The notes beneath the pieces were generated by a model. That model did no database searches, was not told the origin of the DNA, and worked only from the letters and a program-made list of their open reading frames with translations. Positions 1,071-39,694 of a stretch of 39,694 bases of DNA are shown piece after piece; positions within the stretch are counted from its first letter, which is position 1; the number at the start of each line of letters is the position of its first letter. Source of the DNA: a virus. Location: positions 58,976 to 98,669 of IMG/VR virus record IMGVR_UViG_3300002231_000329, one strand, 5' to 3'. The translations under genes were made by a program, and so were the position numbers.

Positions 1071-4000
1071 ATGGATTTAAAGGAATGGATATCTGCCAAT
1101 AATTTGGCAGCCACTATAAACGTATCTAAGGGCTATGAATATGTAGAGATAAATGATGATAGATTTTTGATAATCGATCACGATGGATCCACACTATTTA
1201 CAGCTGACTTCAAGCTAATTATATCAAAAGACCAACACTCTGCTTTCAAGAAGGTGAAGTGCAATCATGTTTTATTCGAATTTGGTGGTAATTGGTATTG
1301 CTCTCCATTTGATGGCAAAATACTCTTCTCCAGTGGGGAGGAGTTTGAGGAAATAGGTTTTGATTTCAATGACTTTAAACACATAGGCGAAAGTCTATCC
1401 ACTTTTGGAGATGATGTATTAACCCATCTTGGGGTGCATGGTGGTTATGAGTTAATGAATGGATCTAGATCTTATTCAGATTGGTGTAAGAAGGCAAAGT
1501 TCCTAGGATTGAGATCTATGGGTATTTGTGAGAAAAACACCCTAGCTGGCACCATATCATTCCAGATGGCTTGCAGCAATAATGGTATTAAGTCAATAGT
1601 TAGGGGAAACTGTATCTGTAAAGTTCAGCGATGAAGATGACATTCAAGAGGTAAAGCTATATGTTTTGGATAGTAAGGGGTGGAGAAATCTGCTCCATAT
1701 AAACAAGGCTATAAATGTCGACAATGATGGATTCATACTATATGAAGATCTTCTTCTTAAGGGAGAGGGGTTGGTATTTGTGTGGGCATCTTCAAATGAT
1801 TTGGTTCTATCTAAAGAGCAATCACTAGACATAGACAGTGCTTTTGATAGATGTTTCTATCAATTCGATTCAGTGGAATACCAATCCAATGAAACAGATA
1901 AAACGCATCTCGAGAAGCTTCAAACACTTATTTCAAAAAGTTATTTTGAGCCAATATTTATCAATGACTCTTATTACTTGGATCAACAGGACTCTAGGGT
2001 CAAGAAGCTTGTAAATAAGATCGATAGGGGCAGAGCTCTAAATCAGAGTGAAGATCAATATTTTAAAGATCTGGATGATGTGGCAAGTTCGTGCGAATAT
2101 CTATTCCCCGATGAAGAATCATTCTGGGCATTCTTCTGGGAGGCTGTCGATAGTGCTTACTGGGTTGAGGATAATTCAGACTTTAAGATTGAAATAGGAG
2201 GATTCAAGATCCCTAAGTATGAAATGACTCCAGAAGAGAAAAGCAAGTTCTCTTCAAGTAGGGAGATGCTTGATCATCTTATTGATATTGGTATGGATAG
2301 TAAGGTAAGTGATAAGGATGCTGCTATTGCTTGGGATAGAATTGAGGAGGAGCTTGATGTTATCGAGGAAGGTGGTTTTGTTGATTACTTCCTAATACTT
2401 TGGGATATCATAAAATTCTGTAATCGAGAGGGCATATTGGTCGGGACTGGTCGTGGATCAGCGGCCGGAAGCTTTATATCATACCTATTGGATATCGTTA
2501 AACTTAATCCAATGGACTATGATCTGTTGTTCTCCAGATTCCTAAATAAAGGAAGAATTAAGGTTTCTATGCCTGATATTGACACTGACTTTGAATCAGA
2601 AAGAAGACCTGAGGTTAAGAGGTATATGGAGCAAAAGTATGGTCAAGACAGAGTTTGCTCTATTGGTACTTATGGTACTTTAAAATTAGCTGCAGCCATA
2701 CAAGATCTTGGGAAGCTACAGAGAATCGATAATGGCAAGAAAAGCTATATGACTAAGATTCTTAAGCCATATGCTGATTCTGGAAAGTGGAAGTCCTTAT
2801 TCGAATGTGCAGTAGAAACTCCAGATTTTAAAAAATTTACAATTCAAGATTATCCAGATATGATCAACAATATCAGGCTCTTGATGAATCAGCCAAAGAA
2901 TGCATCAGTCCATGCAGCAGGTGTTATCATTGTTCCAAAATGAAGACTCTGAGGGGAATCCGATGAACATATTTGATTGGATGCCAATTAAGAAAATGGA
3001 TGGAGTCCTTATATCAGAGTGGGAGGGAACTCATTTAGAGGCAGCTGGATTTCTTAAGGAAGATATATTGGGGATTAAGCAGCTGGATAAGTTTAAACAG
3101 ATGTTTGATCTCATCGAGGAGAATACGGGTGAGAGGCTGACTCTAACTCAAGAAGATATTCCCTTAGATGATGAAAACGTGTACAACCTATTTCATGAAG
3201 GATGTAATGGAGATGTATTTCAGTTTGGTACTGCCGGCTTAATAGGATACTCACAGGATGTTAAGCCCAACAATATTGAAGACCTGATAGCCATGAATGC
3301 ACTTTATAGACCAGGTGCCATGGTGTCTCAAGCACATATTGATTTTGTTAGGATTAGGCGTGGTAAAAAAGACCCTGAATACGATCACCTTCTTGAGGAG
3401 GTAACCAAAGACACAAACGGCCTTTATATCTATCAAGAGCAGGTGATGAAGGCTTTCCAGATTGTTGGTTGCTTTACTTCAGTGGAGGCAGATGATATTC
3501 GCCGAGCTATGGGTAAGAAGAAGGTAGAGGTTCTTCATTCTTATAAGAAGAGGTTTATTGATAATGCAATTTCTCAAGATTACGTAGAAGAAGAGGCTAT
3601 TGCTCTTTGGGATAAGTTGGAGGCTTTTGCTGGATATGGATTCAATAAGAGTCACGCCGCTGCTTACTCTATTATGGGATATATGGGGCAGTGGATTAAG
3701 TATCATCACCCAATGGAGTATTGGGCAGTTACTTTGTCTAATGCCGACAAAGAAGATCTACCTAAGTTTATATCAGAGATTAATAAGCTTGATCAAAACA
3801 TATCGATTGCTCCTCCTGATATTAATAAATCAAATGTATCGTTCACTCCAGATTTTGAGACCAACAAGATATATTGGGCTTTAAAAGTAAAGCAAGTTGG
3901 AGATTCAACTCTCGAGCATATTATTGAGGAAAGATCAGTTAATGGTCAGTTTTTCTCTTTTGAGGAGTTTATTGAAAGAGTCTCTAGAGCCAAGGTTAAT

Positions 4001-4573
4001 AAGGGTAAGATCTTGAATTTGATTCTTGCAGGAGCGTTTGATGAGATAGAAAAAATATCCAACGCAAAAGATAGAAAGAAGCTTATTATAGACAAATACT
4101 GCCCTCTTGTTGACAAGGACGTTAAGGAGAGATTTAGTGGTAGTCATTCAAGGTCTGAGCATTTCTGGTTAATCACTCAAAAAGATCTAACAGGTTTTGG
4201 TCATTTGGATTACAAAGACATAATAGGAACACAGACGGCTTTCATAGACAAGAAAGAGCTGTATGTATCTTCTGATAGATTCTTTTCTGGGGAAACAACC
4301 AAAAAGAGGGATGTAGTAATAGCAGGTATTATTAAGTCTGTGGTTGAAAGAAAAACTAAGAGAGGAGACACTTTTGCCAATCTTACTATTGAGTCTAATG
4401 ATGAGGAGATAGTTGCCACTGTATGGTCGGATGTGTGGGATAAAGAGGGAGAAGGAGTTTTAGATCACAAAGAGGGTATTATTGTGCTTAATGGGGTGGT
4501 TTCTTTCAACGATTATCACAAGAAGAATACTCTTCAGACAATTGGTGAAAAAACTCGAATAGCCCTTGTTTAA
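1071..4573 (+). CDS. dnaE: DNA polymerase III alpha subunit, interrupted by two frame breaks
   Basis: One polymerase of about 1167 residues is spread over three frames: 1071-1634, about 1603-2943 and 2944-4573. The N-terminal 115 residues are unfamiliar. A PHP domain follows ('LTHLGVHGGYELMNGS', then 'GLRSMGICEKN' and 'NNGIKSIV') that lacks several metal ligands, as many DnaE PHP domains do. The palm is intact: 'GTGRGSAAGSFISYLL' and 'SMPDIDTDFESERRPEVKRY' carry the glycine loop and the paired catalytic aspartates. Finger and helix-hairpin-helix regions follow ('MGKKKVEVLHSYKKRF', 'FAGYGFNKSHAAAYS', 'PPDINKS'), then an OB fold near the C-terminus ('VVIAGIIKSVVERKTKRGD'). The breaks fall at GGGG (1603-1606) and AAAA (2937-2940). 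Removing one G and adding one A restores a continuous protein ('HAAGVIIVPKNEDSEGN' across the second). It is presumably the phage replicase. Confidence 0.93.
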
Positions 4574-4595
4574 TTGATTTCAAGTTGTAAATTTA
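4566..4595 (+). promoter_or_regulatory. putative Bacteroidota-type promoter
   Basis: TTG at 4566-4568, a 19-base spacer, then TAAATTTA at 4588-4595, matching the TTTG / TAnnTTTG -33/-7 pattern with one mismatch in the -7. It lies 12 bases before the UvsY-like gene and overlaps the end of the polymerase gene. Confidence 0.5.
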
Positions 4596-4606
4596 CACTA
4601 TTCTAA

Positions 4607-5131
4607 ATGGAAAAAGTCAGAATATCTCTAGGGGATAAAGACATTGTATTGCAGTATGAGGATTTAGATATCAACATAGATGTAGACAATTATCTCAAAG
4701 TGGATTATGGTAATTTAATGGGTGATATTATCACATTTCCCGTATTCTTTTCACAACTAGCTCACTTAAGAGGTGAGGCCGAAACCAATGCTTCGATTAA
4801 GAAGATGGAGTTAGATATATATGAGGCCAAGCAAAGGGGGTATTACAGGAAGAAGCTGTTTGCAGACAATCAAAAGAAGCCTTCAATTCAAGAAGTTGAG
4901 GATGCTGTTATGATTGACCCCGGATACTCTCAGAAAAGAAAGAAGCAAATAAATGCTGATAGAGATTTTCATTATTTAGATGCATTATATTGGTCCGCAA
5001 AATCAAAGGACGGTAAACTTAATAAGATCATTGATAAATTAGGTGATAGAGACATCTTAGATGTAGTAGAGGGGGTGTTTAATGGTATTTCCATTAATGC
5101 TGCCAGATCATTCATAGGGAAAAGAGATTAA
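4607..5131 (+). CDS. UvsY-like recombination mediator (putative)
   Basis: The 174-residue, strongly helical protein has the layout of phage recombination mediators. A helical core ('YGNLMGDIITFPVFFSQLAH', then 'ASIKKMELDIYEAKQRGY') is followed by a short linker with 'KKPSIQEVEDAV' and a second helical segment beginning 'RDFHYLDALYWSAKS'. UvsY-type proteins load a RecA-family recombinase onto DNA coated with single-strand-binding protein. Here the next gene is such a binding protein, and RecA is encoded at 21010, which supports the guess. No catalytic motif is present. It is transcribed in line with the SSB gene from a likely promoter at 4566. The assignment is by pattern and neighbourhood, not by a diagnostic residue. 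Confidence 0.5.
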   Translation: MEKVRISLGDKDIVLQYEDLDINIDVDNYLKVDYGNLMGDIITFPVFFSQLAHLRGEAETNASIKKMELDIYEAKQRGYYRKKLFADNQKKPSIQEVEDAVMIDPGYSQKRKKQINADRDFHYLDALYWSAKSKDGKLNKIIDKLGDRDILDVVEGVFNGISINAARSFIGKRD

Positions 5132-5145
5132 TTAATTTGTAAAAT

Positions 5146-6459
5146 ATGTCTATAGATCGTAGTAAGTTCAGAGCTACCAGCCTTAAGAAGGTGGTAAAGC
5201 TTGAGGAGAAAGCAAAAGAAATCTTCTCCTCAAAACGGCGGTGGAAGTGGGTTTCCACCTTATCTGAAAATTACCAGATGGTAAAACAAGGGTGAGAATA
5301 TTACCTGAAAACCCAAACTCTCCAGAGGATATTAGCTGTTATTTTCAGCAGTGCTCAGTCCATTGGTTGCCTTATGTTAAGGTAGAAGATGATGGGAAGA
5401 AAAAAGAGGGTAATCGACCTGTATTTAATGCCCGTATTCACGGATCTCAGAAGAAAGACATTATTGATGAGTACATCAGTAGAGTCGTTGCCATTGTGAG
5501 GGACAGGACTTCCTCTAAAGAGGAAATGAAGCGTCAACTTAACCCCATTAATGGGTATAGAGCTACAGACGGTAAATGGGTGTCTGGTATCAGTGTTTCC
5601 AACTCATGGGAAATGTATGTTCTTAGTCTCGATAGCGATAATGAGAGTGAGATTCATCAATTATCTTTGAGAGCTTCATTGAGAAATAAAATCAACGAAG
5701 CTGCTTCTGATGAGGTAGATGAAGATGATGCAATGGGTGTTGATCCATTTACGGATATTGAAGAAGGATTACCACTTACAATCAAGCGTGATTCTAGCAA
5801 GAAAGGCGGCGATGGCTGGGGTGCTTCTATTCACAGAAGAGAAGAACCCTATCCATTGGGGGATGATGTTTTGGAGTCATTCTTAGGTTATCCTTCTTTA
5901 GAGGAGAGATATGTTGGGATTTACAACAAGAGTCATTTCGATCGAGCTATTGAAGGTCTTGAGTTGTTTGATCAGAGAAATGATTTCGAAGTTTTTGATT
6001 CTGAAGAATTCCAAGATCTGATAGTTGAGCTAGGAGATCTAGTTCCAGAAAAAGAGGAGGAAGACCAAACTTACTGAAAAAGAAGAGAAGAAAGACAGCT
6101 CCTAAGACTACCAAATACTAAGCCTAAAGAAAAAGAAGGTAGAAGAAGGTGAGCCTACTGATCTTGCTGATATGAATAAGAGGCAAATGAAGCAGTATAT
6201 CAAGGACAATGATTACTCAATTAGAGTGTTGCCTCGACATACTGAAGATGATCTTCAGGACATGATTGAGGACTATGAAGCGGATCTTAAATCGAGTGAG
6301 GCAGAACCTAAGGAGGTTGAGGAAGAATCATCATCAGATGAAGAAATTTCAGTAGATGAGGGTGAGTCGATGGATGTTGAAGACAGACCAAGAAGGTCTT
6401 TCAGAGACAGAAATGGTAGAGCTCCAAGAACTGGTGCCTCTAGAAGAAGAAGAGACTAA
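5146..6459 (+). CDS. single-stranded DNA-binding protein, interrupted by frame breaks
   Basis: I read this as one gp32-type ssDNA-binding protein of about 437 residues. Segment one (5146-5292) runs from 'MSIDRSKFRATSLKKV' to 'ENYQMVKQG'. Adding one G to GGG at 5290 joins it to 'VRILPENPNSPEDISCYF', the conserved start of the OB-fold region ('VHWLPYVKVEDDGKKK'). The body is rich in Asp and Glu and ends near 6060 in an A-rich Lys/Glu linker. About four more indels there (6050-6160) lead into 6172-6459. That last segment has a SAP/HeH-like pattern ('MNKRQMKQYIKDNDYSIRV') often seen at the end of such phage SSBs, an acidic stretch, and a basic Arg-rich tail. If the linker breaks are real, 6172-6459 is a separate 95-residue protein. 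It follows the UvsY-like gene by 14 bases. Confidence 0.75.
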
Positions 6460-32079: not shown

Positions 32080-32466
32080 GTGAAAAACAGCACGATATTA
32101 ATAATCAAACCAGACCTTACTAGGAGATCCCTCATATGGGGTCCTTTGGAGAGAGTTGAGAATTCATTTAAGATCATCGACACCAAATACAAGATCCTAA
32201 CTGATGATGAGGTTAAGAGTTTGTATCAGGAGCATGAGAGTAAGGAGTTTTATGATCGATTAACCACTTTCATGAGATCATATCCAGTATTCATTCTAAA
32301 TGTAACACCCCTGTCACCGGGGCATGACGCTTGGAAGTTAGGTAGAGAAGTAGTGGATCATATTAGAAATAGATTTGCTAATCCTAAAATAGCTCACGAA
32401 AACTGTATGCATGGAAGTGATAGTGAAGAGTCAGCTGCAAGGGAGTTATCTATATTCGGGTGGTGA
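32080..32466 (+). CDS. ndk: nucleoside diphosphate kinase
   Basis: A 128-residue NDP kinase starting at GTG 32080. The N-terminal strand 'STILIIKPDLTRRSLIWG' carries the conserved K-P-D, the middle 'LTDDEVKSLYQEHESKEFYD' and 'FMRSYPVFILNV' match the fold, and the active-site His lies in 'NCMHGSDSEESAARELSIFG' (H-G-S-D-S). The enzyme passes phosphate from NTP to NDPs through that histidine. It is a little shorter than the usual 140 residues. With the dNMP kinase at 15645 it can complete dNTP synthesis. The TGA overlaps the next ATG. Confidence 0.93.
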   Translation: MKNSTILIIKPDLTRRSLIWGPLERVENSFKIIDTKYKILTDDEVKSLYQEHESKEFYDRLTTFMRSYPVFILNVTPLSPGHDAWKLGREVVDHIRNRFANPKIAHENCMHGSDSEESAARELSIFGW

Positions 32467-32840
32467 TGAAGAGGTATAAAGCAGTAATATCTAATGTTTC
32501 ATTAGACTCCCATGGAGATGTTCTAATGAAGTGTGTCAATAAGGTTGGTGATGAGCTTCCTCTCAATGTTGATTTCAATGTAAAAGCAAGCATAGGTTAT
32601 GCCATTATCTCTGAAATACAAGATAATGGTGAGATCGAAGCCGACATACATATTGATGATGCAATAAGAATAGGGAAATCATTATCTAATTTCTACGCTG
32701 CCATAGGTGGTGTGGTAATCGAATCTCACTATGACCCAGAAGGAGATGTTAGGATTATCGATAAGTTTGATATTAAGGAGGTGGGATTAACTTCTAATCC
32801 ATCAAATAAAAATCTACCTCCTATATCTTTTAAAGAATAA
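32466..32840 (+). CDS. prohead-protease-like small protein (tentative)
   Basis: From ATG 32466, 124 residues. The order 'VSLDSHGDVLMKC' (D-x-x-G-D), 'IEADIHIDDAIRIG', 'FYAAIGGVVIESHYD' and 'DKFDIKEVGLTSNPSNKN' (I-x-E-V-x-L-x-x-x-P-x-N) resembles HK97-type prohead proteases (peptidase U35 fold). It is shorter than typical members, and the catalytic His and Ser are not clear, so it may be only a related fold. The neighbours are nucleotide enzymes rather than head genes, which argues for caution. Confidence 0.45.
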   Translation: MKRYKAVISNVSLDSHGDVLMKCVNKVGDELPLNVDFNVKASIGYAIISEIQDNGEIEADIHIDDAIRIGKSLSNFYAAIGGVVIESHYDPEGDVRIIDKFDIKEVGLTSNPSNKNLPPISFKE

Positions 32841-32889
32841 GTACTATATTAGTGCTTCAATAACATATAAACACAAACGTAAAGCAATT

Positions 32890-33429
32890 ATGGCTAGGGT
32901 GACGAATAACATTGCTGAGATGATCGTTAATCAAATGAGTATTTCTAAGACAAAGGAGATTGATTCACTTCAGAGAAAAATGCTTGATAAGATAAGGGAG
33001 GAGTTTAAGAAAAAGATTCCAAAATCAGTCCTAAAGGAGTATGAAAAGCATCCCGAATACTTTGGTTTATCTCTTTATGTAAATGTGAGTTCTTCGAGTG
33101 GAAAATTCAATTCTAAAGGTTTCTACCTGAGTGGAATACCATCTCCACAACAGAGTTCTATGTATTTAAGCTTTTTAGAGGATGTTGAGCTTGAAAAAGA
33201 GATTGGAGTTATGTATGATGGTTATCGAGAAGCTGTAAAAGATCATCAGAAGATGGGGATCAATCTATATACCGCGGTGAAGTCATTCACAACATTCAAG
33301 AAGTTGGAGGAAGGTTTCCCAGAAGCATACAAAGCTATTCCAAAGGATGTTAGAGATGGCGCATCTCCTCAATCGAAAATGCTTCCAGCAAAGAACCTAG
33401 ATCCTCTTAAAAAGTATTTCTGTAAATAA
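32890..33429 (+). CDS. uncharacterised phage protein (Nmad5-like, weak)
   Basis: A 179-residue protein beginning 'MARVTNNIAEMIVNQM' with a long helical first part ('LQRKMLDKIREEFKKKIPKS'), a beta segment ('YFGLSLYVNVSSSSGKFN') and an end 'LYTAVKSFTTFKKLEEGFPE'. The closing T-x-K-K-L-E-E-x-x-P-E is shared by a group of phage proteins that I associate, without certainty, with nucleotide-modification-associated domain 5. A TATATTAG at 32845-32852 may be a -7 element, but no TTTG precedes it. Confidence 0.5.
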   Translation: MARVTNNIAEMIVNQMSISKTKEIDSLQRKMLDKIREEFKKKIPKSVLKEYEKHPEYFGLSLYVNVSSSSGKFNSKGFYLSGIPSPQQSSMYLSFLEDVELEKEIGVMYDGYREAVKDHQKMGINLYTAVKSFTTFKKLEEGFPEAYKAIPKDVRDGASPQSKMLPAKNLDPLKKYFCK

Positions 33430-33437
33430 ATTGTACA

Positions 33438-33800
33438 ATGGATATAAAACACAACAAAATGGTTTCTGCCTTAGTAAAACCTGGGCAGGCGATAATCGAC
33501 TCTCTAACCCCGGAAGACGCTGACCTACTGCACATGGCAGTAGGTGTTTCTGGAGAAGCAGGGGAGCTATTAGATGCCGTAAAGAAGAAGGTTATCTATA
33601 GAAAGGAGCTGGATATCGACAACATGAAGGAGGAGCTCGGTGATATAGAGTTCTACATGGAAAGAATTCGACAGATTTGTGGCTTCACTCGAGAAGAGGT
33701 TATTGAAGCAAACATTAGTAAGCTAAGTAAGAGATATAAGTCGTTGTCATATTCAGACGATGCTGCTCAGAAAAGAGCCGATAAAGCAGAGGGAGAGTAA
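33438..33800 (+). CDS. MazG-like nucleotide pyrophosphohydrolase
   Basis: A 120-residue all-alpha NTP pyrophosphatase. Metal-binding motifs are visible: 'VSGEAGELLDAVKKKVI' (E-x-x-E type) and 'MKEELGDIEFYMERI' (E-E-L-G-D-x-x-x-x). MazG-type enzymes split NTPs or dNTPs to monophosphates, and phage forms are thought to adjust host nucleotide or ppGpp pools. It is tightly followed by thyX (stop and start overlap by one base), so the two are probably co-translated. The C-terminal 20 residues are charged and unconserved. Confidence 0.85.
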   Translation: MDIKHNKMVSALVKPGQAIIDSLTPEDADLLHMAVGVSGEAGELLDAVKKKVIYRKELDIDNMKEELGDIEFYMERIRQICGFTREEVIEANISKLSKRYKSLSYSDDAAQKRADKAEGE

Positions 33801-34897
33801 TGGAGAAGAGACAAATTAGTGCAAAGATCATTGCAGACTCAAAGAATGAGTTCGGCGATAGATTGACATCGTTTGTGGTGACTATGCCACGTATCGTTTT
33901 AGCTGAACTGAATACCCATAGAGTATTCTCAAGAAACTCAGCAAGTAGTAGAGCCATCCCATTTAAGAAGATGGTTAAGATGGTCGAGGAGGATCCATTC
34001 ATTCCAATTGCCTTCCAGAAAGACCATTCAGGAATGCAGGGTACTGAATACTTCTCAGAAGGTGAGAATGTAGATATAGATGGAATGTTGTGGACTCATG
34101 AGCAATTATGGCTTGCAGCAAGAGATAAAGCAGTTAAGTCAGCAAAGAAATTAGCAGAATCTGGAGCAACCAAGCAATTGGTCAACCGCCTACTAGAGCC
34201 ATTCATGTGGCATACTGTCATAATCACAGCAACTGAATTTGAGAATTTCTTCAAATTGAGATGCCCTCAGTACCAAATACAATCAGAGAAAGATTTTAAT
34301 AACGGTGCTCAAGGATATTGGAGATCTAGAAAAGATGCTTCAAAATACCACAAGATGGTGATGGATAAGGGAGGTGATGATTTTGTTAAGGAATTACCAA
34401 ATGATGACATATCTTGGCTTAAGATTAATCAATCGGGAGCTGAAATCCACATTGCTAGACTAGCAGAACTCATGTGGGATGCTTACAACGAGTCTGAGCC
34501 TAAGCAACTGGAGGAAGGTGAGTGGCATATTCCTTTTGGAGATAACATCGAGGTGTTCAAGCTGCTTAAGATTATAGAGAAAGAGCAACCTAATTACGAT
34601 CCAAACACAGTTTCAGAGTACTCTCAGTTTCCGATTAACTGGTTACCAAGAAAGGAAGAACTTATGGTGCAGATAGCTACGGCTCGATGCGCTCGCGTGA
34701 GTTATATGAATTACGAAGGTAAGGATGATTATGAGGCTGATATTAAGTTGTTCAATCAACTGAAGAACGCTGGACATGCATCACCATTCGAACACTGCGC
34801 TTGCGTTGGACCTTTCTCTATTTATTATGGAAACTTCAAGGGGTTTACTCAGTTGAGGAAGGTCATGGAAACCGATGACATAGGTAGCGTCAATTAA
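33800..34897 (+). CDS. thyX: flavin-dependent thymidylate synthase ThyX
   Basis: A 365-residue ThyX. The signature lies in 'ELNTHRVFSRNSASSRAIPF' (a variant of R-H-R-x7-S, with T-H-R and S-S-R-A-I-P), and the C-terminal 'AGHASPFEHCACV' is the dUMP-binding S-P-F-E-H block. The central 'LEPFMWHTVIITATEFENFF' and 'CPQYQIQSEKDF' match the FAD and substrate region. It makes dTMP from dUMP using folate and FADH2 and is independent of host ThyA. It is longer than bacterial ThyX (about 220-250), with inserted helices, as in several large phages. dUMP can come from the deaminase at 23547. Confidence 0.93.
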   Translation: MEKRQISAKIIADSKNEFGDRLTSFVVTMPRIVLAELNTHRVFSRNSASSRAIPFKKMVKMVEEDPFIPIAFQKDHSGMQGTEYFSEGENVDIDGMLWTHEQLWLAARDKAVKSAKKLAESGATKQLVNRLLEPFMWHTVIITATEFENFFKLRCPQYQIQSEKDFNNGAQGYWRSRKDASKYHKMVMDKGGDDFVKELPNDDISWLKINQSGAEIHIARLAELMWDAYNESEPKQLEEGEWHIPFGDNIEVFKLLKIIEKEQPNYDPNTVSEYSQFPINWLPRKEELMVQIATARCARVSYMNYEGKDDYEADIKLFNQLKNAGHASPFEHCACVGPFSIYYGNFKGFTQLRKVMETDDIGSVN

Positions 34898-34911: not shown

Positions 34912-34946
34912 AAAGAGGGGTCGTATAATCGATTCCTCTTTTTTTT
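34912..34946 (+). terminator. Rho-independent terminator
   Basis: AAAGAGGGGTCG pairs with CGATTCCTCTTT (two G-T wobbles) around a TATAAT loop, ending in eight T residues. It ends the MazG-ThyX unit. Confidence 0.88.
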
Positions 34947-34997: not shown

Positions 34998-37885
34998 ATG
35001 GAATTAAGCTACAATAAAAACGAATCCATTCTCAAGGGATTTACAGATGATCTCCACTTGGAGGCATCAATAGAGATTTTTAAAGAAGAAAAAGACAGAA
35101 CTTAGAGAAAGGAGGAAAAGACTCTCCCAGTTGGTACCATAAGAAGTTGGAATGGTGTTTCCTATATCAAGACCCCTAAGGGATGGATCCCCAAGGGAGA
35201 AGATAACAAGAAGAAAGCAGCCAAGCAGAAGGAGGAAGCCGAAAATGATATTAAAGACTTAGAGTCGGGCTCCATTATAGCTGATAGTGTTTTGGGTATG
35301 GATATCCAGAAGTACTCAGACAAGGCAGTATTGATCACCGGAGATACATATAGCAATGTGGATTCTCTAAGAGAGGTCGAAGAAAGAAACCGGTGTAGGT
35401 AATTGGAATAAGAAACTAAAAGGATGGGTATTCCCTATTACTCAAGTAGGAAACCTCCTAGGTGCTTTATTAGGTAAGGAGCAGGCAAGTCTGGGCAACG
35501 ATGATCCAATCAAAGAAACCCAACAACAAAACCAAAAAGAAGTTAAGAATGCCTATTCAGTTGGTCAGTCAGTTACATTAGATAATGGCAAGCCAGCGGT
35601 TATATCGAAGGTAGGTCATAATGGAACTTCAGTAGAATATACTGTTCGCCAAGGAGGTAAGGAGCTGGTTGTAACTGAATCAAGCTTTGTAGCGAAACCT
35701 GAAAAGAGTGATGAGAAGATATCTCAATCACTAAACACCGTTACTGCATCCACAAGAACTCGGGCCACTAAGGAAATATTTGGTGATGTAAGCGTTGCCA
35801 TTAAGTCTAAAGAGCTCGATGGAGTATCTGATAAGTCTAAGGTAGAAGCTTTGCAGAGTAAGAGGGACAAGATGGTAGAGCGTCTTAAGAATCTTGCAGA
35901 CGGTAGGGTTTCTAAGAAAGAGAAAAAGGAGGCTACTAGCTCAAAGGATTCCGGCAAGAAGAAACAAGCCAATACATCATCAGGTAAGGAAAGAGCTTCA
36001 TTGGATAAGGATTTGGTGTCTAATCAAATGATGTCTGTAACCGAGTACTACCAAGCATTGTATGGAGAGCTACCACAAGACCCTGAGGCTAGGTCTAAGG
36101 CTATGATGGGTAATCAGAATGCAGCTGGTAAGAGAGGTGGTAAAGAAGATGAGCCAAAACCATCTACTCCCCAAAAAGAAGAACCAAAGAAAGAGGAAGA
36201 CAAGCCGGATGAGGTAGTCTCAGCAGTAGATAGAATGGCTAAAGAGACATCTGATAAGTTTATTGAAGATGCTGGAGATGATCCCGACAAACTTAGAGCA
36301 ACCTTAGGATTGATTGAATCACAGCTTAAGGGAAAGAAGGGTAGTTCGAAAGCTCTACTTCAGAAGATATCAGAAAACGTAGCACTACACCTATCTACTC
36401 TACCCACAAAGAAAGAAGAACCAAAAACCAAAATTACCCCAGAACCAGTAGATCCACCGGAAAAGGGGGAGCCGATTGCTGGACTTGACATAAGTTATAC
36501 TGTGAGGGAGATTGAGATGGAGATTGGTGGACAAAAGGTTAAGGTGGAGGATCATACCGATCTTCCTCCAAAGGAAATCAAGACCTATAACATCAAGAAT
36601 ATCTTAGATTCACCTAAGCCGGATTACGTATTTAGTGTGTCTGGAGATAAGGGTAAGTTTACGAGACTAAGAGGATATCTATCAGCTGTTACCGATCCAT
36701 CTAATCCCAACAATGTTATTGTAGACAATAGATTTGTTGACTGGAGAGGAGGTTCTAGAAATGAAACTGGTGGATACATGAGAATGAGTAGGGAGCATTA
36801 TATGGCTACTATGAAATATCATCAGACCAAGATGAAGGCAGAGGCTAAGATAGAGGCTCAGGAGCAAGCCGATAGAATCATAGCTAGATATAAGAGTGAT
36901 TACCCAGGTAGGGAGATTCCTAAAAAGTATTTCAATCCCAAGGCTAAGAGATATACTTTTAATGGAAATAAGGGAGTGTATCAGCCAGATTTAGATCTAC
37001 TTGGAAAGGTGTATAAAGAGTTTTGATTCTTCACAATCACCAGTAAGTAGGAGAGATAAGATATTAAAGGTAATGGAGATGAAGGGGCTCAATGATATTT
37101 CCTTCAATAACCTCAGTATTGCTTTAGAGGATTATTCAAGCACTTACCACAAAGGTAAGGAGACTTCATATGGAGATAAGGGGTCTAGGGATGATTTGAA
37201 GTCAGAGTTTGGAATTAAGATTAAGAATCAAAATGGTTCTGAAATGTCCAAAGATGATATTAAGTTCGTCAAGGATAAGATGGCTGAGGTATATGATGTA
37301 TTTGGTGATCGATCTTCTATGTCTGAGAGCTGGAATCTAAAGGTATCACATGCAGGAGGTGTTCATCAGCATGCAAGTACCGCCGTTGGGTTATTTACTC
37401 CTTCATTCAACGCAATTGGTGTATCTAGAACTTATGGAGACAATAAGGGTGGATTTACCTTAGGGCATGAGTTTGCTCACTTCATGGATTACTATGGAGC
37501 AGAGAAGTCTGGTAACTCTAGAAAGTTCTTATCACATGATTCAAGTCATGTAGCTGGAGAGATAGCCAATGTATTTAGAGACAACCTTAATGACCCGAAA
37601 GCAAAGGTCCATGATTACTTAGGGTCATCACACGAATGCTTTGCTAGAGCATTTGAGCAATACCAAGCCATGAAGACTTATGGCGATAGTGTAGAGAAAC
37701 TACCAGCTATGGGAGATACTGCCTCTATATCTTATTCCGATCATCCAGCTCAAGTATCTGCTAAGAAGTTTAATGAAAAAGTAGCTCCATTAATCGAGAA
37801 GTTCTTGAAGGATAATGATAAATTGCTAAAATCATTTCAACCAGATCTATTACTAATGGATGCTTATGATATTTTGAAGGCTTAG
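34998..37885 (+). CDS. polyvalent protein with zincin (LPD1-like) domain, disrupted by TAG and frame breaks
   Basis: I read this as one protein of about 960 residues. ATG 34998 opens 35 residues, then an in-frame TAG (35103-35105); the same frame resumes with 'LPVGTIRSWNGVSYIKTPKG', a module common in phage head and injected proteins. After a break near 35370-35390 comes 'GVGNWNKKLKGWVFPI', the end of a G-D-T-x-x-x-K-D-x-L pinned module, then a KOW-like region ('YSVGQSVTLDNGKPAVISKV'). A Lys/Glu linker holds 'MMGNQNAAGKRGGK'. After one extra T at TTTT (37021-37024) the C-terminal part follows: 'GGFTLGHEFAHFMDYYGAEK' (H-E-x-x-H) and 'HECFARAFEQYQAMKTYG' (E-x-F-A-R-A-F-E), matching large polyvalent protein domain 1. 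Such proteins are thought to enter the cell with phage DNA. Ends in TAG. Confidence 0.65.
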
Positions 37886-37887
37886 TG

Positions 37888-37919
37888 TTTGCATATATCA
37901 TAAGGTATTTGTATTATTG
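37888..37919 (+). promoter_or_regulatory. putative promoter before the patatin gene
   Basis: TTTG at 37888-37891, 20-base spacer, TATTATTG at 37912-37919. It starts with TTTGCAT, as the promoters at 25894 and 31072 do. A terminator-like hairpin follows 22 bases later. Confidence 0.5.
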
Positions 37920-37941
37920 AGTTCATTCTCTGAATCAGCCC

Positions 37942-37997
37942 AAGGCGTAGTGATCGTAGTCGGATATAACCGGTTGATCCTACGCCTTTTTATTTAA
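37942..37997 (+). terminator. terminator-like hairpin in the patatin leader
   Basis: AAGGCGTAG pairs with CTACGCCTT, extended inward by GATC/GATC past one bulged base, with a CGG/CCG apex stem, then TTTTTATTT. It may end the upstream gene or attenuate transcription from the promoter at 37888. Confidence 0.75.
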
Positions 37998-38008
37998 CTA
38001 AACTAACA

Positions 38009-38911
38009 ATGAAAGCAGCAGTATTTACAGGAGGAGGAGCAGATGGTGCAGTCACCGTCGGGAGACTCTCTATAACTCAACCAGACTATGATCTTGCTCT
38101 TGGCATTAGTACTGGATCTTTAATAGGACCACTTGCTTTGATTAAGCAGTATGATAGGTTAAAGGAGGCTTATGAGAGTGCTGATACATCAGATATCACA
38201 GAAGTAAGTGCATTTACCAAAAAAGGAACCCTTCATATAGGTAAGGCACTATTCAGATCACTTCTTTCACTTGTTTCTTCATCCAATACTATTGGGAAGA
38301 GTAATGGTCTTAGAAATATGATCAACGACATGTATACTTACTCTGATTTCGAAACAATGAGAGCTAAAGGTAAGTCCTGCAATGTTGGTTGTTATTCATT
38401 AACTTCAGAGGAATTAGTCTTTTTCAATTCAATACATGAGTCTTTTGATGACTTTAAGGAATGGATGTGGGCCTCAGCCAACGTCCCGGTTGTTATGTCG
38501 ATCTTGAAGAAGAAAAGATATGACTTTGAAGAGGAGTGGGTAGATGGGGGGACTGCATCTGTATGCCCACTAGTACATGCCATCTCTATGGGAGCAAAAG
38601 AAGTGGATGTATATATGCACTCACCTAGATCTGGGTCTATCAGGAAAAAGGTAATCAAAAACACATTTCACCTTCTTTTAAGAACACTAAAATCCTCATT
38701 TAAGGAGTCATCTGCTAAGGATATAGATCTTGGGTTAGCTATGGCCAAGGTAATGGGGTGTGTGGTTCGAATTCATTGGATGGATAGAGAGTATTATGAT
38801 AATTCTCTAGTGTTTGGAAAAGATAAGATGAAGCTCTTATTCAAAGCAGGTCAAGAGCTTGCAAAAGATAAAAGATATACCGACATTTATGATTACTCCA
38901 AAAGTAATTGA
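38009..38911 (+). CDS. patatin-like phospholipase
   Basis: A 300-residue patatin-domain hydrolase with all catalytic elements: oxyanion loop 'VFTGGGADGAVTVG' (G-G-G-x-x-G), nucleophile serine in 'LALGISTGSLIGP' (G-x-S-x-G) and the partner Asp in 'EEWVDGGTASVCPL' (D-G-G). Patatins cleave acyl groups from membrane lipids. Here no signal peptide is seen, so the protein would act in the cytoplasm, or be carried in the particle, between two polyvalent or head-type proteins. It could help lysis, entry or host membrane remodelling. Its leader carries a promoter and a hairpin, suggesting controlled expression. Confidence 0.9.
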   Translation: MKAAVFTGGGADGAVTVGRLSITQPDYDLALGISTGSLIGPLALIKQYDRLKEAYESADTSDITEVSAFTKKGTLHIGKALFRSLLSLVSSSNTIGKSNGLRNMINDMYTYSDFETMRAKGKSCNVGCYSLTSEELVFFNSIHESFDDFKEWMWASANVPVVMSILKKKRYDFEEEWVDGGTASVCPLVHAISMGAKEVDVYMHSPRSGSIRKKVIKNTFHLLLRTLKSSFKESSAKDIDLGLAMAKVMGCVVRIHWMDREYYDNSLVFGKDKMKLLFKAGQELAKDKRYTDIYDYSKSN

Positions 38912-38914
38912 GAC

Positions 38915-39694
38915 ATGAATCTTGATATAGGTGCTTTAAAAGCAAAAGCAAAATAGCTTCCAATATTTCTAAAAGGCGGTCCTGGTTCGGGTAGGAGATC
39001 CAAAATCAGAAGCCCCATATTCACCTTCTTATAAAAATACCCCTCATCCAGAGGAAAAAGGTGGAGAGGAATACAAGAAGAGAGAGGAAGCATCTCAGCA
39101 AGTAGTTAATAGAGAAAATAAGGCAAAAGAGATAGACAGCAAGATATCATCTTTTCAAAACACGGCAGAAATGCCAAAAGGACAAGATGCTGCCTCAAAT
39201 AAGAGAATAGAAGAAGCAAGAAATAAGATACAGTCTCTGAAAGAAGAGAAGAATAATTTAGAAAAAGCAGCTCCCATATTTACTGGAGCATGGTCACCAC
39301 AATGGGGTACTATCCCAGCCAACATAGTAAAAGCTGATTCAGCACAACAAGCAAAGGTATCCAAAGTAATGGATGAGTTCAAAGATGGTAGTCTAAAGAG
39401 CTCGGCAGGAAATAAAGTAACATCAAAAGATCAAGCAATAGCAATAGCCCTAAGTGAGGCTGGATTGAGAAAGAGTAAATACTCAGATAAATTAGATAAG
39501 ATGAGGGCTAGGAGGGATTCTGATGGCATCGAAAAAGCAGCTTCTGAAAAGCAGTATTCTGATATGATCATAATTAATGAGGAGGGAGAGATTCTTCTTT
39601 TGAAAAGATCTAAAAGAGATTCATTTGGAGCAGGGAAGTGGTGTCTCCCCGGAGGAACTGTAGATCCTGGGGAGAATCCTAGAATTGCAGTTAT
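38915..39694 (+). CDS. GGPGSGR-DUF6496-Nudix protein, disrupted, 3' partial
   Basis: ATG 38915 gives 'MNLDIGALKAKAK', then an in-frame TAG (38954-38956), after which the same frame reads 'LPIFLKGGPGSGR', an N-terminal motif common in phage head and polyvalent proteins. A one-base break near 38993-38998 shifts to the frame that stays open to the window edge: 'DPKSEAPYSPSYKN', a long charged helix, then 'MDEFKDGSLKSSAGNKVTSK' and 'DQAIAIALSEAGLRKS', which matches DUF6496. It then enters a Nudix domain: 'ILLLKRSKRDSFGAGKWCLP' and 'GGTVDPGENPRIAV', the first part of the Nudix box. The catalytic REUxEE residues lie beyond the window. The protein is at least 255 residues. Confidence 0.6.

Follow-up and report, generated by a model that had tools for sequence, protein, structure and literature searches.

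Three neighbouring genes in a viral genome recovered as a metagenomic contig encode a zincin metalloprotease, a patatin-like lipase and a Nudix hydrolase, which raises the question of whether they form one set of effectors carried in the virion, as a preliminary description proposed. The DNA analyzed (the window, 39,694 nucleotides) comprises positions 58976-98669 of a virus record of 102,083 bases, G000. All features described below lie on the plus strand and have window coordinates. A contractile-tail structural module is found elsewhere in G000, with TerL, portal, MuF-like, head maturation protease (PHROG 1028, 2e-44), major head protein (PHROG 752, 2e-79), sheath and baseplate genes. The upstream contents of the window are replication and recombination genes (DNA polymerase III alpha, UvrD, RecA and a cytosine methylase), and genes for nucleoside-diphosphate kinase (NDK), a MazG-like protein and ThyX lie near together at 32080-34897. 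This nucleotide-metabolism group is followed by the zincin, patatin and Nudix genes, in that order, and then by a Dda-like helicase gene. An Rfam search of the window gave zero matches. At 32460-32840 there is a 126-aa protein whose end, by eye, resembles the C-terminal part of prohead proteases; its sole match was PHROG 16618, of unknown function.

The source is a single poor-quality metagenomic contig, and ORF-based readings of G000 must allow for indels. Frame breaks were found in the sheath gene by comparison with up to 80 relatives and in the MuF-like gene and connectors by comparison with 25-73 relatives, and ambiguous bases are scattered throughout the record. Since the sheath, MuF-like protein and connectors are indispensable to a viable phage yet are split in the same way as the zincin and Nudix genes, sequencing or assembly indels, and not decay, are the likely cause of the breaks in all of these genes. 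A pseudogene reading of the zincin and Nudix frame breaks was considered and judged unlikely on the same grounds. Frames were read as given and the bases were left unaltered.

The zincin gene and its active site

The zincin gene (34998-37885) is present in a single copy in G000. Terminator-like hairpins with T-runs lie in the interval between ThyX and the zincin (34912-34941, found by scanning; folding energy -16.2 kcal/mol, z -5.2) and in that between the zincin and the patatin (37942-37988; -23.8 kcal/mol, z -4.0). In this contig the gene occupies three frames, with pieces at 34998-35399, 35371-37026 and 37001-37885 that align as successive stretches of what is a single ORF in nine relatives. 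The multidomain product begins with an N-terminal motif, PVGTIRSWNGVSYIKTPKGWIPKG (35127-35198), followed by a small domain, KYSDKAVLITGDTYSN..GW-FP (approximately 35305-35480), which has a frame break within it and is common to the Nudix-linked relatives L006, L013, L014, L165 and L187. An inter-domain linker, ARSKAMMGNQNAAGKRGG, lies at approximately 36079-36141. It is followed by a conserved domain without a Pfam name (approximately 36500-37026), recognized by local BLAST to L006 and L010, in the alignment of relatives and in a model of the L006 homologue, and then by the zincin domain itself (37142-37860).

Three short motifs had been taken as typical of phage head or injected proteins, and all of them (PVGTIRSWNG..KTPKGW, GNQNAAGKRGG and KGGPGSGR) are present. 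The first is the N-terminal element of the zincin family, and divergent forms of it recur among the members. As a general virion tag, GTIRSWNG was rejected; pattern hits in viral contigs were mostly chance matches or lay in short or out-of-context frames. GNQNAAG lies in the linker, an element that marks large polyvalent proteins: an extended GNQNA pattern was found in 64 ORFs, many of them near-duplicates, and 43 of the 64 are 700 aa or longer, a size class that accounts for 21% of ORF residues. This enrichment in large ORFs exceeds chance. Carriers of the linker hold LPD1, MuF_C, PBECR1, LPD3 or methylase-SNF2 domains. The form RSEAMxGNQNAKK (L047-L109) was also seen to be strongly over-represented among multidomain phage ORFs of very large size.

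The identification of an H-E-x-x-H metalloprotease held up well. The sequence HEFAH is encoded at 37466-37480 and the helix Glu that follows it at 37634-37636, and none of the residues H156, E157, H160, D163 and E212 varies among 14 sequences. Two further residues are described as marks of the phage-type MPTase clade (PMC5512222), an Asp three residues past HEXXH and a His at the end of strand 2. The former (D163) was found in 14/14 sequences and the latter (residue 117 of the window zincin) in 12 of the 14, that of the window included; judged on the clade's published description, the window zincin carries its marks. In a model of the L006 homologue, which is intact (543 aa; pLDDT 81, pTM 0.80), the helices are placed accordingly. 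Compared with solved structures, this model matched metalloproteinases of the lethal-factor type (E=1.5e-4, with a low overall TM-score), and PPEP peptidases were also among the matches. Among viral models, the best match was a 684-aa protein (E=2e-30), the same length as the homologue in a Leptospira phage. PDB sequence searches with the zincin and the patatin returned nothing useful. The assignment to LPD1 (PF18796) did not survive: the window scores 14.6 bits against a Pfam cut-off of 27, the zincin relatives score 17-26 bits, and genuine LPD1 proteins reach 74-78 bits. In PHROG, the zincin ORF matched family 4529, 'minor head protein and DNA pilot', at 6e-6.

The Nudix gene and gene order in relatives

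The Nudix gene starts at about 38915 and continues past the end of the window (38915-39694 within it) to about 98.9 kb of the record. KGGPGSGR (38972-38995) lies in a different frame from the rest of the gene, which is split upstream. DUF6496 follows at 39345-39464, and the Nudix domain begins at 39564 and runs beyond the window end. Both domains had been noted before, and both were confirmed; over the full gene, the Pfam family PF00293 scores 76.4 bits against a cut-off of 21.1 (E=2.7e-21), and the Nudix box is complete, with one ambiguous base within it. The domain is 39-41% identical to the zincin-fused Nudix domains of L006 and L013. Nudix and zincin are fused or abut in L006, L013, L014, L165 and L187, in either order (Nudix-zincin-ART in L165, zincin-Nudix in L187). 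The zincin neighbour in L011 was at one point taken for a Nudix gene and was discarded, Pfam giving only DUF6496 and DUF5661. A single-protein scan of viral contigs for Nudix relatives found none.

Zincin relatives were found in viral contigs, in one Spirochaetales MAG and in Leptospira phages; a tblastn search for a homologue in phages LE3 and LE4 found none. Their N-termini are variable, with Nudix, SF2 helicase with PBECR1, ART or methyltransferase domains. In relatives of the same capsid type, the zincin ORF usually stands immediately upstream of the genes for the prohead protease and the major capsid protein (MCP), at a distance of about 2-13 kb from MCP in records that have both. Searching with the capsid clade of the window phage gave 80 loci. 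Sequence of 7 kb or more precedes MCP in 37 distinct phages, of which 15 carry a Nudix domain in the locus; a zincin is present in 3, and in all 3 the Nudix is in the same or an abutting ORF. Whole-record searches of 23 capsid relatives found Nudix in 11, always within about 11 kb of MCP (11/11), these distances being computed from locus ranges; the Nudix and zincin counts in the clade are not independent of kinship. Thus, in this capsid clade, Nudix is mostly a head-module domain, with the zincin as an occasional companion. In L161 a single head-module ORF (2767-6051) combines a zeta-toxin kinase, Nudix, a 2H/Acb1-like (anti-CBASS) domain and an ADP-ribosyltransferase (ART). The large terminase ORF of L002 (11751-14189) contains a segment that by eye resembles an intein, with a homing-endonuclease-like insert (CVSP...VSHN).

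The preliminary description had suggested looking at gene order around the portal and capsid genes, and the outcome is divided: in relatives the zincin is next to the prohead protease and MCP, whereas G000 is exceptional, with its zincin and Nudix genes about 67-70 kb from MCP (or some 31-33 kb were the ends joined) and surrounded by replication and nucleotide-metabolism genes. In the MCP tree, the window phage stands beside L014 and the pair L006 and L013, with support of 99/99. The zincin tree is unresolved, and the window zincin sits on a long branch in it; a clade of the window zincin with those of L014, L006 and L013 was not rejected (p-AU 0.098). The closest capsid relatives have no zincin anywhere in their records.

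It could be argued that the displaced position is an artefact of a chimeric contig and that the true genes lie in the head module. The pervasive frame breaks and ambiguous bases would fit such an origin, as would the zincin-less records of the closest capsid relatives, but G+C is even across the junction, replication-type genes resume past the Nudix gene (the Dda-like helicase) with no head module, and indel errors by themselves cannot relocate genes. We regard a chimera as improbable.

The patatin gene

Between the zincin and Nudix genes lies an ORF for a patatin-like phospholipase of 300 aa (38009-38911). It had been recognized as a lipase gene, and its catalytic motifs are intact (GGGADG, GISTGS with the GxSxG serine, and the DGG aspartate), with a score of 47.5 bits for PF01734 against a cut-off of 27.7 (Pfam E=3e-12). 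A single-protein scan of viral contigs for patatin relatives found none; identity to any relative found otherwise is 23-29%. An AlphaFold model built from two sequences reached a pLDDT of only 39.8 and was left unused.

That the zincin, patatin and Nudix proteins together form one virion-borne set directed at protein, lipid and nucleotide targets is suggested by the adjacency of the genes on the same strand and by the intact patatin motifs; patatin-like genes are also reported in other phages (phage WO and Burkholderia prophages). However, a strong terminator-like hairpin separates the zincin from the patatin, and the patatin ORF has no head-type motif. No other zincin-bearing phage record was found to have a patatin gene, the hits in G011 belonging to a bacterial MAG. 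Among the 23 capsid relatives, a patatin gene was found in only 1, about 32 kb from MCP and with 28% identity, and in every relative examined patatin is absent from the vicinity of the capsid genes. Other phage relatives, in huge-phage contigs, are standalone genes with unrelated neighbours. We therefore give the three-effector proposal little credence as a whole; its zincin and Nudix parts are well supported by the way in which relatives order and fuse these genes, and its patatin part is not. With a strong hairpin before the gene, no head-module counterpart and standalone phage relatives, the patatin is probably a separately acquired accessory enzyme outside the effector set. It resembles patatin-like phospholipases, including CBASS-type effectors, in its intact-motif domain and in a weak PADLOC phospholipase-effector match (E=1.9e-4), and differs from the CBASS type in that no defence gene was recognized among its immediate neighbours and in its low identity to the relatives found. 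The case is a warning against inferring function from adjacency.

Possible roles of the zincin and Nudix proteins

On balance, and with moderate confidence, we favour the reading that the zincin and Nudix genes correspond, in this phage, to the polyvalent effectors that its capsid type encodes in the head module, relocated here as a pair, with the patatin separate. The gene order and the fusions in relatives, together with the domains and active-site residues, point to head-packaged effectors, and there is precedent in the literature for polyvalent MPTases and Nudix proteins packaged in phage heads (PMC5512222, PMC9503650). The two proteins would be synthesized late, packaged in the head and delivered into the cell along with the DNA. 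Most likely the zincin would cleave a host protein, perhaps one of a defence system, and it may in addition trim itself; the Nudix enzyme would most likely hydrolyse a nucleotide-type defence signal or metabolite, as head-linked Nudix domains have been proposed to counter nucleotide signals (PMC9503650). The present position would reflect a move of the pair together, out of the head module and in among the genes for replication and nucleotide metabolism. Several observations count against this reading. With the genes 67-70 kb from MCP among replication neighbours, late expression and packaging are things that we infer, and the long zincin branch, the zincin-less closest capsid relatives and the error-rich contig also weigh on the other side.

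A position outside the head module makes it possible that these copies act only inside the cell. Both could now be ordinary enzymes, co-expressed with replication genes and unpackaged, with the Nudix protein cleaning or balancing the nucleotide pool. The neighbouring NDK, MazG-like, ThyX and Dda-like helicase genes, the long zincin branch and the hairpins on both sides of the zincin gene are consistent with this. However, the N-terminal motif, the GNQNA linker and the KGGPGSGR/DUF6496 additions are retained, and in P1 dispersed genes can encode head proteins; we consider a purely intracellular role unlikely.

Another possibility is that the zincin acts on its own polypeptide only, as has been suggested for DdrB-like proteins of P1, without being an effector itself. 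Self-processing is the favoured role for such MPTases (PMC5512222), and most zincin relatives bear further domains that such cleavage could set free. In the 684-aa Leptospira phage protein and the window protein, however, the site is kept with no other recognized enzyme domain to release, which leads us to prefer a host target to self-processing alone, and the window phage encodes its Nudix domain in a gene of its own. Pure self-processing is possible, if somewhat unlikely. It should be noted that these readings overlap in part, self-processing being a mechanism and the others locations, so that the confidences attached to them do not sum to one.

The window zincin and Nudix proteins probably belong to a known kind, the polyvalent proteins; what is new is their pairing and position. 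Like the zincin-MPTase polyvalent proteins of phages (Iyer et al. 2017, PMC5512222), the family comprises large multidomain proteins with an HEXXH zincin and the extra Asp, variable partners (helicase, ART, PBECR1, methylase) and, in relatives, a head-module position. It differs in the sub-cut-off LPD1 scores, in the Nudix partner in either order and in the remoteness of the window copy from the head genes. Relatives show the several disparate domains and the proximity to late genes by which polyvalent proteins are recognized; the window protein has one recognized enzyme domain only, and its gene is distant from late genes. Like the head-linked Nudix proteins, for which removal of nucleotide signals is proposed (PMC9503650), the Nudix of relatives is fused to or beside head genes, but here it has a zincin partner in the same polypeptide or an adjoining gene, and the window copy, which carries DUF6496, is remote from head genes. 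DarB and DdrB of P1 (PMC9024508, PMC5512222) are likened by role and not by sequence relationship, being large head proteins delivered with the DNA; the head proteins of P1 are encoded at several places. DarB is packed via an N-terminal signal (PMC9024508); that the window zincin protein has a packaging signal would be a guess by analogy.

The result is a defined zincin family with a partner, each zincin found in one capsid clade being fused to, abutting or near a Nudix. A conjectured connection between peptidase and nucleotide hydrolase thereby becomes testable in one probably injected system, and the window phage offers a natural case of head-module effectors outside the head module, in which to ask whether packaging follows gene position or a protein signal. 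One speculative answer, to which we attach a low probability, is that RSEAMxGNQNAKK linkers, represented here by that of the zincin protein, are NUMOD3-like DNA-binding elements that tether polyvalent proteins to the packaged genome. In Pfam scans, NUMOD3 had no match in the linker segments of the window, L060 and L019, and was borderline in L187 (20.9 against a cut-off of 20.4). Effectors tethered in this way would enter the cell on the genome even from genes distant from the head module.
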